From Paraurantiacibacter namhicola (GTDB lineage: Bacteria > Pseudomonadota > Alphaproteobacteria > Sphingomonadales > Sphingomonadaceae), in assembly GCF_001687545.1 (NCBI RefSeq), contig NZ_CP016545.1, forward strand, positions 1,473,001 to 1,537,000: a stretch of 64,000 nt of DNA, given 5' to 3'. The position numbers and the translations under genes were made by a program. Below, piece after piece: positions 32,769-37,766 of the stretch; positions within the stretch are counted from its first letter, which is position 1; every line of letters starts with the position of its first letter. The notes beneath the pieces were generated by a model. It did not search any database. It was not told the origin of the DNA and saw nothing but the letters and a program-made list of their open reading frames with translations.

Positions 32769-34586
32769 ATGACTGACCTTGCCAAGATCCGCAACTTTTC
32801 GATTATCGCCCATATCGACCACGGGAAGAGCACGCTCGCCGACCGGCTGATCCAGCATTGCGGCGGCCTGACCGCGCGCGAGATGTCCGAGCAGGTGCTC
32901 GACAACATGGACATCGAGAAGGAGCGCGGCATCACCATCAAGGCGCAGACCGTGCGCCTGAATTACACCGCGAACGACGGCGAGACTTACGAGCTCAACC
33001 TCATGGACACGCCCGGCCACGTGGACTTCGCCTACGAGGTCTCGCGCTCCCTGGCCGCGTGCGAGGGCGCGCTGCTGGTGGTGGACGCCGCGCAGGGGGT
33101 GGAGGCGCAGACGCTCGCCAATGTCTACCAGTCGATCGAGCACGACCACGAGATCGTCCCCGTCATCAACAAGATCGACCTGCCCGCGGCCGAGCCCGAG
33201 CAGGTCCGCGCCGAGATCGAGGACATCATCGGCATCGATGCCAGCGACGCCGTGCTCACCAGCGCGAAGTCCGGCATCGGCATCGAGGAGGTGCTGGAAG
33301 CCCTCGTCTCCCGCATCCCGCCGCCCAAGGGCGACCGCGACGCCCCGCTGACCGCCAGCCTGGTGGACAGCTGGTACGACCCGTATCTCGGCGTCGTCAT
33401 CCTGGTGCGCGTGATCGACGGGGTCCTGAAGAAGGGGCTGGACGTAAAGTTCATGCAGGGCGGCACGCAGCACCTGGTGGACCGCGTCGGCTGCTTCACG
33501 CCCAAGCGTGTGGACCTGCCGGAGATCGGCCCCGGCGAAATCGGCTTCATCACCGCGCAGATCAAGGAGGTGGAGCAGGCCCGCGTGGGTGACACCATCA
33601 CCACGGTGAAGAACGGCGCGGCGCAGGCGCTGAAGGGCTACAAGGAAGTGCAGCCCGTGGTCTTCTGCGGCCTCTTCCCCGTGGACGCGGCGGATTTCGA
33701 GAAGCTGCGCGAAAGCATCGGCAAGCTGCGCCTCAACGATGCCAGCTTCAGTTACGAAATGGAGAGCAGCGCCGCACTCGGCTTCGGCTTCCGCGCCGGC
33801 TTCCTCGGCCTGTTGCACCTGGAGATCATCCAGGAACGCCTCAGCCGCGAATACGACCTCGACCTCATCACCACGGCGCCGTCCGTGGTTTACCGCGTCC
33901 ACCTCGCCCACACGAAGAACGAGGATGCGGAGGTGCGCGACATCCACAACCCCGCCGACTGGCCGGACGTGAACCGCATCGACATGATCGAGGAGCCGTG
34001 GATCAAGGCCACGATCTACACGCCCGACGAATATCTCGGCGCCATCCTGAAGCTGTGCCAGGACCGGCGCGGCATCCAGACGAACCTGACCTATGTCGGC
34101 GGGCGCGCGCAGGTGACCTACGAGCTGCCGCTGAATGAGGTGGTCTTCGACTTCTACGACCGGCTGAAGAGCATCAGCCGCGGCTATGCCAGCTTCGATT
34201 ACGAACAGATCGGCAATCGCGAGGGCGACCTCGTGAAAATGAACATCCTGGTGAATGCAGAGCCGGTGGATGCGCTATCCCTGATCGTCCACCGCAGCGT
34301 GGCCGAAGAACGCGGCCGCGGCATGTGCGAGCGGCTGAAAGACCTCATCCCGCGCCACCTGTTCAAGATCCCCATCCAGGCCGCGATCGGCGGCAAGATC
34401 ATCGCCCGCGAAACCATCGCAGCCCTGCGCAAAGACGTGACCGCCAAATGCTATGGCGGCGACATCAGCCGCAAGAAGAAGCTGCTGGAGAAGCAGAAAA
34501 AGGGCAAGGCGCGGATGCGGGAGTATGGGAACGTGAGCATCCCGCAGGAGGCGTTTATTGCGGCGTTGCGGATGGGGGAGGAGTAG
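32769..34586 (+). CDS. lepA: translation elongation factor 4 (LepA)
   Basis: 605 aa, full length. GTPase motifs: [15 protein letters not shown] (P-loop, ~residues 14-28), ERGITIKAQ (switch I), DTPGHVDF (switch II), NKID. The C-terminal LepA-specific domain is present ([17 protein letters not shown], then [20 protein letters not shown]). It remodels stalled or back-translocated ribosomes. GGGGCGG precedes the ATG. This is the last clearly core gene before the accessory island. Confidence 0.97.
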
Positions 34587-34601
34587 GCGGTTCGGGCAAA
34601 A

Positions 34602-34677
34602 GGCCAAGGGGGGACTCGAACCCCCGACCTATGGATTATGAATCCATTGCTCTATCCAGCTGAGCTACAAGGGCATA
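34602..34677 (-). tRNA. tRNA with CAU anticodon (Met or Ile2), aberrant acceptor stem
   Basis: D-arm (TAGCTCAGCTGGATAGAGC), anticodon stem ATGGA/TCCAT with loop TTCATAA, and T-arm GGGGG-TTCGAGT-CCCCC are all canonical, so the anticodon is CAU. The two acceptor strands, GCCCTTG (5') and CTTGGCC (3'), do not pair at three of seven positions. CCA is not encoded. A near-perfect inverted repeat (34590-34605 and 34678-34694) encloses the gene. It is either a degenerate tRNA or one whose acceptor end was rewritten by recombination. Whether Met or lysidine-modified Ile cannot be told. Confidence 0.75.
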
Positions 34678-34739
34678 GGCCTTTCGGCCCGAACGACACA
34701 ACTGTAACTCTCGGATCGAGAATTGCAAAGGTGTATTGG

Positions 34740-34946
34740 CTAAGACCAATGGGAAACATCATAGAAGTTATTCTCGCCGTTGGGGCACTCGTCGCGAAGC
34801 ATGATGGCGCCTCGCTTCGCAGAGGCTTCTTCGACACCATAAACTTCAACGGAATGTCCACATCGCGTGCATCTTAGATCGAGACACGGGACCTCTCCAT
34901 AATCGCCCTCAGTTGTGCTTTCAAAAATTTCAACTGTGACTTTCAC
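34740..34946 (-). CDS. small Cys-pair protein downstream of the reverse transcriptase, 68 aa
   Basis: Reads away from the reverse transcriptase gene, 11 bp after its stop, so it is the second gene of that operon. It carries CTRCGHSVEVYG (Cys pair) and a later Cys in RDECPNGENNFYD, as in small zinc-binding proteins. It is acidic and has no signal peptide. I recall similar short proteins only as uncharacterised. It could be an accessory part of the defence unit or an unrelated passenger. Its base composition is low-GC like the RT gene. Confidence 0.6.
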   Translation of the reverse strand: MKVTVEIFESTTEGDYGEVPCLDLRCTRCGHSVEVYGVEEASAKRGAIMLRDECPNGENNFYDVSHWS

Positions 34947-34957
34947 TCAAGCCTCCA

Positions 34958-36445
34958 TCACTTCAAATCAATGGCATCTGATGCATCGCGCCGAGCTTGG
35001 CGTTGTAGCGCGCGTGCAATCTCCTGATCCACCCTATGCCTAGCGCGTTTCCTCAAACGCCTGACTTGACCGTGAATCTTTTTTCCTTTCGTTTGAAACT
35101 CTTCCACAGAACGCGCTACGTAGGTCCAGAAAGTCCACCTCTTGTTTGACGAGGAAGGCTCGAACCTCTCAACCCGTCCGAAGCACTTTGTGAATTCCTC
35201 AAAATTGAATAGATCACATAGTTCATCGTAAGTCTTGTTGGGATAGCGCCGAATTGTCGCTTCTGCTTGATTTCGGGCCACCGATGCGACCTTGCGGTAT
35301 AGGTTCGACATCGTTGAATCTCGAAGAAAGACACTCTGACCGTCGTAGCGGAAGCCAAGGTACTCGAGACCGTTTTTCCCCTTGCCAGAAATCAAATCTG
35401 AATGTTGGGCATCACCATTTCGCGTGTAGCGGACCAGTGACGACTTCTCCGGCTTGATAACGAGCTGGTCGCCATGCTGACGGATGCGAGTGGGCAGCTC
35501 TGCCATGATTTCTTGGGCCTGTTCGACTGAAACAGGCAAGATCAGGAGAATATCGTCCGAATAGCGCACATAGCTTCCGCCCAAGCTGACGGCGAGCTCG
35601 TGCATCTCGACATCGAAGTCTATTAAATAGAGGTTGGCGAGCAGGTCTGAGATCGGCGCGCCTTGCGGAATTCCGAAGGGCTTTGTGTTCGGCTCGACAA
35701 GGGAATCGTACTCGCCGTTCTCACCAAGAATTTTCTGCCGAAACTCGTGCGGTGAGCAAAGCTGGGTCGGAATTTCGTCATAGGGGGTAAGGTAGCCGTG
35801 GATTGGATCGCCGCCTTTCGTGTAGCTTTTCACTCCATAGTAGCCGAGCCGCTCGTAGGCCTTCACCCTGTCGACAACGCGATATTTCGTGATGTTCTTG
35901 AAAACGGCAAAGTGATCCGCAGGAAGGCGCTCCACGCCAAGCAGGCGGCACCAAAGAGCCTTCAATCGCTCATGATCAATTGATTCGAAATAGCTGCTGA
36001 TATCGACAGCAATTGCACAGCAATTGCCTAACTCACGGATGCGATCAAACGCTTCACGGGCAAACTGAATATTGCACTTACCTCGCCGCCCGTCAGTTGC
36101 TGTTGGGATTCGTCGGTACGCAATCGGACAGTGGCTGATACCAAGGCGACTCAACTCAGTCTCGTATGGACCGCTGAGCAAGTGCCGATAGTATGCGAAG
36201 ATATATGCGTCTCGGCGCGAAGCATACCGGATGGGCCGGTCCTTCGACTTGGGCTTCGGAGTGTCGCTCCCTTTCTCGCGTCGGAAGGGCTGCCATTTCT
36301 TCGTATAGCGTAACAGAGGGAAGAAGCTGTTCTCCGCAACCCTCTTGGGGTCGGTGACCAGCGCAACGATTTCTTCAGGCTTCAGTATCTGATCAAAATG
36401 CGGATAGCGCTTGAGATCACTTTTCTTGAGAGTCCATCCCGGCAT
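34958..36445 (-). CDS. defence-associated reverse transcriptase, UG/Abi type, DRT2-like
   Basis: 495 aa from ATG 36445, chosen for GAGGAGGGGCGG just upstream. Reverse transcriptase palm motifs: AVDISSYFESIDHERL with catalytic Asp148, GIPQGAPISDLLANLYLIDF, and VRYSDDILLI with YSDD at 295-298. There is no maturase, endonuclease or integrase domain. The N-terminus (YPHFDQ, VTDPKRVAENSFFPLLRY, RPIRYASRRDAYIFAYY) and LGVERLPADHFAVFKNITKY recall, from memory, DRT2 (UG2) antiviral RTs, which copy an adjacent structured RNA. Upstream lies a hairpin-rich leader without a confident gene, as that model requires. Lower GC than the chromosome around it. Class assignment is inference. Confidence 0.85.
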   Translation of the reverse strand: MPGWTLKKSDLKRYPHFDQILKPEEIVALVTDPKRVAENSFFPLLRYTKKWQPFRREKGSDTPKPKSKDRPIRYASRRDAYIFAYYRHLLSGPYETELSRLGISHCPIAYRRIPTATDGRRGKCNIQFAREAFDRIRELGNCCAIAVDISSYFESIDHERLKALWCRLLGVERLPADHFAVFKNITKYRVVDRVKAYERLGYYGVKSYTKGGDPIHGYLTPYDEIPTQLCSPHEFRQKILGENGEYDSLVEPNTKPFGIPQGAPISDLLANLYLIDFDVEMHELAVSLGGSYVRYSDDILLILPVSVEQAQEIMAELPTRIRQHGDQLVIKPEKSSLVRYTRNGDAQHSDLISGKGKNGLEYLGFRYDGQSVFLRDSTMSNLYRKVASVARNQAEATIRRYPNKTYDELCDLFNFEEFTKCFGRVERFEPSSSNKRWTFWTYVARSVEEFQTKGKKIHGQVRRLRKRARHRVDQEIARALQRQARRDASDAIDLK

Positions 36446-36455
36446 CCGCCCCTCC

Positions 36456-36700
36456 TCAACGAGAGGGGGCGGCAGTAACCGGTTCCATCCGGTTAACACT
36501 ACCGCCCCGCACCGTTGGCAACGAGCTGGGCGAGCCCCGCTCTGTCTGGAATATATTCGACGAAGTCGAGTATGCTGTCGCCGTCACGGCTATCGCGCTT
36601 ATCGCGATGGTCGATTGGCGGAGATCGCTAATCTCGGCATTCAACGGAGTTGCCTTTATGACTACCCGCTTTGCGCTTCGGTTCGCGTTCATCCTTTACA
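36456..36700 (-). ncRNA. candidate template ncRNA upstream of the reverse transcriptase
   Basis: Read leftward toward the RT gene, this region holds a dense run of hairpins: CAAC/GTTG (36642-36652), GAGAT/ATCTC (36621-36635), ATCGCG/CGCGAT (36592-36608), GCCG/CGGC (36580-36590), TCGAC/GTCGA (36557-36569), CGTT/AACG (36513-36523) and a long two-part stem (36466-36508) ending 20 nt before the RT start. One frame is open throughout (78 codons from ATG 36692) but has no spaced ribosome site. The pattern fits a DRT2-type template RNA whose copies make a long open frame; a normal small protein is the alternative. Ends and promoter are not defined. Confidence 0.55.
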
Positions 36701-36800
36701 GTCACAACTACTTACTCTGCCCCCCGAGTGAGCAGATACATTCAACGTGGTGACGACCCTCTAATCTTTCAATAGCTGGCAGCAACGACCTCGCGGTTAT

Positions 36801-36816
36801 CACCAGAATTCTGGTG
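36801..36816. promoter_or_regulatory. 16-bp perfect palindrome between the RT leader and HNH gene
   Basis: CACCAGAATTCTGGTG, a perfect dyad, lies 54 bp before the HNH start and about 110 bp upstream of the RNA-like region. It is a candidate operator for one or both divergent transcripts. Confidence 0.45.
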
Positions 36817-36869
36817 TTGGCTGGCAAAAGAGTGCAACAGGCAGCTTTGTTCGCAGCGGATCCTATCGA

Positions 36870-37766
36870 ATGACCTTCGGCGTTTTCATGCACAAGGATG
36901 GGTCGATCTACGACGACATTCCCGAGGTGCATTACCAGTTTCCGAAAAGCTATCTCAGCCGCGCCCAGCAGATGGTCGGTGACTGGATTGTCTATCGCGA
37001 GCCGGTCAAAATTCCGAACTCCAAGGGCTTCTTCGCCGTGGCGAAGGTCGAGGAAATAATAGCTGATCCGACAGAGCCTGACCGCTACCGCGCGATCATC
37101 GAGAAAGGGAGCTATCTGCCTTTCGAGCCGACCGTGCCGCATATTGTGGATGGCGAACAGGTTGAGCGCGGTGTTCTCAATGAAGAAGGCAAGGTATCTG
37201 GCCGCGCGCAAGCCGCCGTCCGTCCGCTTTCGCATTCCGACTTCGCGCGCATCATTTCGCTCGGCCTGCCGGATGAGGACTTTCTGCCTCGTAGCGATGA
37301 CGAAGTGGTCGAGGACAACCGCGTCCGCGAGCATCAGACCCCGTTCGAAATCGAGCGGCCCATCGTCCAGTCACTCGTCTCCAAACCATTCCGCGACCGC
37401 GCTTTCCGCCGCGCCGTGATGCATGCCTATGATGGCCGCTGCGCGGTGACAGGCTGGAAGCTGGTCAATGGCGGTGGCCGCCTGGAAGCGCAGGCCGCGC
37501 ATATCCGCCCGGTCGAGCATGGCGGCCCTGACAGTGTCCGTAACGGCTTGGCCTTGTCAGGCACGGCGCACTGGATGTTTGACCGCGGCTTGATCGGCTT
37601 CCGTGACGATCTTGAAATCATGGTCCATCGCAAGGTGAACGATGTCGATGGGGTGCGGGGCATTATCAACTCGACCGGCAAGCTGCTGCCGCCACAGCGA
37701 GACACCGATCGCCCGCATCCGCAATTCCTCGCCTGGCATCGGGAGCATCACGCGTTTGCGGCATGA
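36870..37766 (+). CDS. HNH endonuclease with N-terminal EVE/PUA-like domain
   Basis: 298 aa. The start MTFGVFMHKDGSIYDDIPEVHYQFPKSYL and GDWIVYREP with GFFAVAKVEEI resemble EVE/PUA-like modified-base readers. The C-terminal part has an HNH nuclease: CAVTGWKL (~residues 191-198), AAHIRPVEHGGPDSVRNGLAL with His211, and HWMFDRGLIGF. This layout resembles modification-dependent HNH restriction enzymes (EVE-HNH). It would cut foreign DNA carrying modified bases. Divergent from the RT gene across ~420 bp. No methyltransferase adjoins, as expected for a type IV-like enzyme. The EVE assignment is by eye. Confidence 0.8.
   Translation: MTFGVFMHKDGSIYDDIPEVHYQFPKSYLSRAQQMVGDWIVYREPVKIPNSKGFFAVAKVEEIIADPTEPDRYRAIIEKGSYLPFEPTVPHIVDGEQVERGVLNEEGKVSGRAQAAVRPLSHSDFARIISLGLPDEDFLPRSDDEVVEDNRVREHQTPFEIERPIVQSLVSKPFRDRAFRRAVMHAYDGRCAVTGWKLVNGGGRLEAQAAHIRPVEHGGPDSVRNGLALSGTAHWMFDRGLIGFRDDLEIMVHRKVNDVDGVRGIINSTGKLLPPQRDTDRPHPQFLAWHREHHAFAA

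Follow-up and report, generated by a model that had tools for sequence, protein, structure and literature searches.

A divergent DRT2-type locus of Paraurantiacibacter namhicola whose leader RNA is predicted to be copied head to tail into a repeat gene

A reverse transcriptase (RT) locus of Paraurantiacibacter namhicola most probably is a divergent DRT2-type abortive-infection system that assembles a repeat gene from its own RNA, a reading assigned a probability of roughly 85%. The locus lies within a stretch of 64,000 nucleotides (NCBI RefSeq assembly GCF_001687545.1, contig NZ_CP016545.1, positions 1,473,001 to 1,537,000 of the forward strand) that was analyzed as a whole, is termed the window here, and is numbered from its first letter. 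The new element is that the template of a divergent DRT2 clade can be decoded from sequence by an explicit rule, which predicts, locus by locus for all 15, the base at the junction and the sequence of Neo. A search of the open literature, with the supplements of DRT2 papers outside its scope, found no paper on Neo or the ncRNA of an alphaproteobacterial DRT2 clade. If the reading is correct, a recently discovered defense trick extends to a distant branch in which a hidden gene exists only once the repeat has been copied head to tail. De novo gene assembly from RNA then would predate the Klebsiella-like group and reach beyond it, and the ACA jump signal would not be essential.

The RT gene and its ribosome site are positioned as follows.
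34958-36445, minus strand: DRT2/UG2 RT of 495 aa with a YSDD active site (PADLOC, NCBIfam, phmmer against PDB, fold match)
36451-36456, minus strand: Shine-Dalgarno sequence AGGAGG of the RT gene, 5 bases ahead of the ATG (sequence)

An earlier note, made by a model from the letters of this DNA, had described a stand-alone, DRT2/UG2-like RT with a YSDD motif, a strong ribosome site and no nuclease or maturase domain, and each of these points was borne out. The gene begins with an ATG at 36445, preceded by the AGGAGG element, RVT_1 is the sole Pfam domain in the product, and the YSDD aspartates occupy alignment columns D297/D298. The Drt2 models ranked top in PADLOC (1e-134 and 1e-94). Grouping of the RT with group II introns, retrons or DGRs, which would have spoken against the assignment, was tested with profiles and was not found: the first family other than Drt2 was RT_UG17 at 3.2e-20, the group II intron RT/maturase profile TIGR04416 scored 70.8 bits against a cut-off of 300 with no maturase domain, and retron profiles scored far weaker than Drt2 in a comparison confined to the RT. 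The DRT9 profile gave 8.4e-14. The NCBIfam Drt2 equivalog NF041746 scored 359.8 bits, below its cut-off of 390. The nearest solved chains in phmmer searches of PDB were those of DRT2 (4.3e-64 and 4.4e-64, with 9c0i at 4.4e-64). An AlphaFold model of the RT built from six sequences (pLDDT 77.3, pTM 0.74) retrieved DRT2 9c0i first in Foldseek (5.9e-31; next 2.6e-9), with DRT9 as the second-ranked match, and aligned with 9c0i in VIA-align with a Z of 28.5 and an rmsd of 3.5 over 395 residues, the next entry having a Z of 20.9. Based on the combined profile, fold and tree results, the RT belongs to DRT2/UG2 in the broad sense but lies outside the Klebsiella-type group.

The clade comprises 15 loci, namely the window locus, L003-L008, L012, L015, L016, L017, L019, L020, L021 and L022, of which L021 and L022 are plasmid-borne. 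The RT of the Sphingobium locus L003 is 78% identical to that of the window. A tree of 20 RTs placed 12 clade members on one branch (support 100/100, length 2.16) apart from the Klebsiella-type locus L023, although long branches leave the finer order unsure; L004, L017 and L015, the last with a mislocated start, were left out of the RT alignment and tree. On this evidence the clade is a divergent DRT2 branch that is far from the Klebsiella-type enzyme. The full-length RNA alignment (A3) comprises 10 of the 15 loci, and the weak matches L009, L010 and L014 and a second Azospirillum record (H2) were left out of the analysis. DRT2 of this type is found in few genomes. In samples that count the window's own genome, it was present at E 1e-30 in 3 of 396 genomes of the order, including the distant locus L013, and in 2 of 398 genomes of the phylum sample, and at E 1e-60 in 4 of 385 genomes of the class and 4 of 397 of the family. 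The RT is broken in L004 by a TAG at codon 203 and in L017, whose halves are split by a TGA (L017/L018); the template units of L004 and L017/L018, as defined below, are still open despite the broken RTs.

The repeat unit and the elements that delimit it are located ahead of the RT gene.
36562-36708, minus strand: predicted template (repeat unit) of 147 nt, from the G of GT-1 to the base before GT-2
36707-36708, minus strand: GT-1, predicted end of copying and jump donor, conserved, 8 nt before the complement of the -35 element
36560-36561, minus strand: GT-2, predicted jump acceptor within CGTCGAA, conserved, 9 nt after the complement of the -10 element
36695-36700, plus strand: -35 element of the junction promoter, TTTACA
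36571-36576, plus strand: -10 element of the junction promoter, TATGCT, brought to a 17-bp distance from the -35 element only by head-to-tail joining

Unit length, open frame and junction promoter support the earlier proposal of a leader that serves as template for a repetitive gene: as decoded, the template lies between conserved GTs, has a length that is a multiple of three, is stop-free when read antisense, and joins the -35 and -10 elements at 17 bp. A unit between two conserved GTs was found in 15/15 clade loci, with GT-1 and GT-2 at the junction in all. It measures 147 nt in five loci, 141 nt in three, 150 nt in two, and 138, 132, 129, 123 and 120 nt in one each, that is, eight values between 120 and 150 nt that are all divisible by three. 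When the unit is concatenated and read antisense, frame 0, which is in register with the junction, is stop-free in 15/15 loci, whereas the other frames are open in 13 of 75 cases (3/30 for the remaining two antisense frames and 10/45 for the sense frames); the Fisher p value for frame 0 versus the other five frames is 8e-10 when related loci are treated as independent. With the promoter ends held fixed and the interiors shuffled, the chance of openness was 0.08 to 0.55 per locus, and the product of these chances over 11 chosen loci was 5.5e-7.

The -35 element is TTGACA in ten loci, TTTACA in four and TCGGCA in one, and the -10 element is TATACT in eight, TATGCT in four, and TATAAT, TATGAT and TATATT in one each. 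The 17-bp spacing holds in 15/15 loci by construction of the unit, and the -35 element is recognizable in 14/15. The exception, L008, hence fails the exact GT/-35/-10/GT rule. This rule is met by 13/15 real leaders, detected any unit in 19 of 6,000 shuffled leaders and an open multiple-of-three unit in none, and fitted 1 of 638 tiles of the window, solely that at the locus, but as it was derived from the same loci the shuffle and tile figures measure specificity and are not an independent test. The second leader counted as failing is that of L015, for which the stretch was misplaced in the exact-rule test, so that its 400 shuffles came from the wrong stretch; the elements proper to L015 fit the rule. 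The L007 unit was missed by the search pattern and was entered by hand. RNA structure at the template ends could partly underlie the GT/17-bp geometry.

The bases that precede the two GTs bear on where the jump would take place. They are the same in 6/15 loci, and otherwise the match available to the jump is two bases. In the window and L019 they differ, being A before GT-1 and C before GT-2. A copied A would interrupt the conserved frame with a TAA at each joint, whereas a copied C keeps the frame open; alternatively, if the A is copied, a different frame (SRVCC...) is open in both genomes. As the conserved frame is open only with the C from the GT-2 side, the RT should jump exactly at GT and take the next base from the acceptor.

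Two features of the opposite strand describe the predicted gene.
36562-36708, plus strand: predicted neo repeat of 49 codons, stop-free through the junction, EVEYAVAVTAIALIAMVDWRRSLISAFNGVAFMTTRFALRFAFILYSHN
36646-36660, plus strand: GGAG-N8-ATG, predicted neo ribosome site and start, with the ATG at 36658

The predicted Neo product includes peptides such as FAFILYSHNEVEYAVAVTAIALIAMVDWR. An in-frame ribosome site and start were identified by a strict scan in 12/15 loci, and none was detected by that scan in L006, L017 and L020. Frame 0 is hydrophobic in 14/15 loci, and in 14/15 it is the most hydrophobic of the antisense frames, L008 being the exception to the latter. For the characterized Klebsiella system (KpnDRT2), PMC12039810 and PMC11100668 describe antisense copying of the template into head-to-tail repeats whose length is a multiple of three; where two repeats meet, a promoter with 17-bp spacing arises, and the antisense frame runs on without end. 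By analogy, the RT of the window would bind the leader RNA and copy the template toward its 5′ end. The 3′ end of the cDNA, which would terminate in ...AC after GT-1 has been copied, then would re-anneal to GT-2 and initiate the next round. Phage infection would bring about second-strand synthesis on the concatemer, each junction promoter would drive transcription antisense to the ncRNA, and translation from GGAG-N8-ATG would yield an endless hydrophobic protein of 49-residue repeats (Neo) that leads to growth arrest.

A more elaborate reading concerns a gene that follows the RT.
34740-34946, minus strand: lineage-specific companion gene for a 68-aa cysteine-containing protein (tblastn, codon-position counts)

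This reading holds that the locus represents a separate DRT2 branch with a two-base GT jump, longer repeats and a leadered neo mRNA, to which the window lineage adds a cysteine-rich protein, along with a traveling tRNA-CAU, that modulates or restrains Neo; it is regarded as doubtful. The small coupled gene described in the earlier note is genuine: it starts 11 nt past the RT stop, and its nucleotide differences from the L019 copy are distributed 8/2/21 by codon position, a pattern that makes it look translated and under purifying selection. The suggestion that this extra small protein is part of the system did not hold, and the gene was rejected as a system component since tblastn detected it in the window and L019 only, that is, in 2/15 clade loci. 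It was present in 1 of 59 genomes of relatives, that one being the window's own, had no match in 72,556 plasmid records, and showed a 16-residue match in one viral contig. Weak profile matches of the protein to PDC-S34 (0.0019) and RMP (0.035) were not used.

The RT locus follows lepA and a tRNA-CAU gene. GC content is 0.52-0.54 in 1-kb windows across 34500-36999 compared to 0.62-0.67 in the left flank and 0.63-0.69 in the right flank, in agreement with the lower-GC DNA noted earlier. A position between core genes also had been claimed, which is apt for lepA on the left, but not for the right neighbor, an HNH-nuclease gene in a variable slot. This HNH_2 nuclease (36870-37766, plus strand) resembles phosphorothioate-DNA restriction enzymes (NF045808, 94.4 bits, cut-off 180). 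It was rejected as a system component as it adjoins lepA in G243 (89%) and G352 (77%), and no RT match was present in the stretches fetched from these two genomes. Variable low-GC cargo after lepA in relatives (stretches L039, L040, L042 and L043) includes a Swt1-like HEPN/PDC-M34B gene in G243, GmrSD_N/NsnA plus a HEPN gene in G352, a KAP NTPase in G189, and GmrSD_N plus a Schlafen/AlbA_2 gene in G177. The slot after lepA looks like a defense hotspot in this family. The tRNA-CAU gene is located between lepA and the 68-aa gene (34601-34674, minus strand, in the window; 8249-8322 in L031), and the window's genome and G853, both of which have DRT2 here, share an identical stretch of 85 nt that includes the tRNA. 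In six other relatives this stretch matches elsewhere, at best with 84% over 62 bases, and no tRNA-Met was found in 13 other homologue stretches that were scanned. The gene possibly is an extra tRNA that travels with the DRT2 cargo. A second defense RT of 564 aa is encoded in the same genome near 988 kb (L002, 1096-2790, plus strand), for which the best PADLOC matches were Drt6 (1e-152) and then Drt4 (2.6e-111).

Substitutions in the template were examined for signs of coding. A codon-periodicity test revealed no third-position bias, and residue identity in frame 0 was no higher than in the other antisense frames; the case for Neo thus rests on openness, length and hydrophobicity. In PMC12039810 / PMC11100668, most conserved Neo residues of KpnDRT2 likewise are attributed to conservation at the nucleotide level. 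The two negative tests favor the view that the tandem-repeat cDNA itself acts as effector, as it does in DRT9 or DRT10, with the open frame a by-product of composition and RNA constraint, and related class 2 systems are described as acting via non-coding cDNA in PMC12483538 and PMC12632851. However, an effector of this type sits poorly with a frame 0 that is open in every clade locus when most other frames are closed, with eight lengths that are all divisible by three, with in-frame ribosome sites in most loci, and with the formation of a promoter at the junction, and it is considered improbable.

The junction promoter of the window copy is weak, as TTTACA/TATGCT matches 9/12 consensus bases with three mismatches, and the RT frame is broken in two of the 14 other clade loci (L004 and L017), which could indicate that the window copy is a decaying relic. 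Nevertheless, the active site is intact, nucleotide differences between the RT genes of the window and L019 are distributed 36/21/177 by codon position, and the unit is open in both genomes despite eight changes. Decay of the window copy is judged very improbable.

The RNA that would supply the template has the following elements.
about 36455-36740, minus strand: DRT2 ncRNA, conserved extent (alignments and covariation)
36715-36736, minus strand: candidate 5′ handle hairpin (sequence; appears in single folds of some loci)
36523-36542, minus strand: buttress-like hairpin GAGC...GCTC (helix 3, 97.1% of cells paired)
36511-36515, minus strand: ACGGT, proposed partner of ACTGT at 36698-36702 (helix 1, 98.0% paired, one-sided changes only)
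36466-36508, minus strand: tower hairpin (helices 4 and 5 of the covariation model; tower-base test on 15 sequences)
36460-36465, minus strand: CTCTC element (invariant in 10 sequences, less so in 15)

Judged by its alignments, the leader is a conserved RNA with a covarying 3′ scaffold. Close relatives can be aligned along the entire leader, and the full set of clade loci at its two ends. In the structure of 27 pairs derived from 10 sequences, 94.2% of cells were paired and 12 pairs had changed on both sides; 0/500 shuffles reached either the pairing or the two-sided count, and pairing was at most 52.5% when the structure was slid. The base of the tower was 93.2% paired over all 15 sequences, with two-sided changes in 5/7 pairs and 0/500 shuffles as good. 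The stem between ACTGT at the template start and ACAGT/ACGGT before the tower was 98% paired with one-sided changes only, and the 5′ handle yielded no consensus pair in the 15-sequence alignment. The hairpin-dense leader of the earlier note therefore stands in part: structure in the 3′ portion is conserved among homologous loci with compensatory changes, but when folded as a single sequence the leader departs only mildly from its shuffles (z -1.89; 4/100 of them fold equally well). The conserved RNA extends slightly further than the end first drawn for the locus at 36700, to about 36740. A tRNA was the sole match in an Rfam scan, which returned no family for the leader. No consistent -10 element for a native ncRNA promoter was apparent across the clade loci, and no promoter-like site was found at 36400-36900. 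That the leader is a mere structured 5′ UTR or attenuator of the RT gene, and is not used by the RT as template, is scarcely credible: although the leader directly precedes the RT ribosome site and the tower lies less than 25 bases from the RT start, a scan of 36400-36900 revealed no terminator-like site, an attenuator would explain neither a middle that varies while the flanking ends stay fixed and covary nor a geometry that is stop-free, keeps to multiples of three and forms a promoter, and the nearest characterized relative requires its ncRNA as template.

Eight DRT2-like loci outside the clade also were scanned. Among the matches listed, an open multiple-of-three unit was present in four (L013, L023, L024 and L026, the last with three promoter mismatches) and in none of L025 (145 nt), L028, L029 and L030, with 8 of 18 matches listed for L028 and 8 of 9 for L030. 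The published ACA...ACA pair, sought at 16-18 bp as a positive control, was found in 0/8 of these loci; inspection by eye shows ACA/ATA in L023. Of the eight, L013 alone conforms to the exact GT rule. L013, which played no part in deriving the rule, is from the same order as the window, has an RT about 30% identical to that of the window, and possesses a 129-nt open unit with TTGACA and TATAAT. Based on this fit, the GT signal may extend beyond the clade. The DRT2 locus on a Photobacterium damselae plasmid (L023, WP_237043333.1) is annotated as Drt2 and matches KpnDRT2 at 1.4e-142 in phmmer. The scan revealed a 111-nt unit that is open and carries TTGACA and TATAAT, but the locus lies outside the clade in the tree, fails the exact GT rule, and has the junction repeat AGAT beside ACAGAT/ATAGAT instead of GT.

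DRT9 (UG28) resembles the window system in having a class 2 RT with an upstream ncRNA, but differs in that poly-dA is templated from a uridine-rich stretch, as described in PMC12483538; inspection of the leader alignments revealed no conserved uridine-rich stretch. The closest comparison is with KpnDRT2 (9c0i). The window RT is about 29-31% identical to that enzyme, is longer with extra stretches (495 versus 425 aa), and has YSDD in place of YCDD. The jump signal is a GT/GT pair in the window clade, but an ACA pair in KpnDRT2. Units of the clade are 120-150 nt, whereas the unit is 120 nt in Klebsiella and mostly 117 nt in close relatives, with several of 111 or 129 nt, and the predicted neo start in the window is ~81 nt after the -10 element compared to the 13 nt reported for Klebsiella. 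In contrast to these differences, the two systems have in common the RT family and fold and a single ncRNA upstream on the same strand, with a predicted template set between 5′ and 3′ parts and tower and buttress-like hairpins located 3′ of it. In both, the unit is divisible by three with a stop-free junction when read antisense, and a sigma-70-like promoter with 17-bp spacing is formed only by joining.
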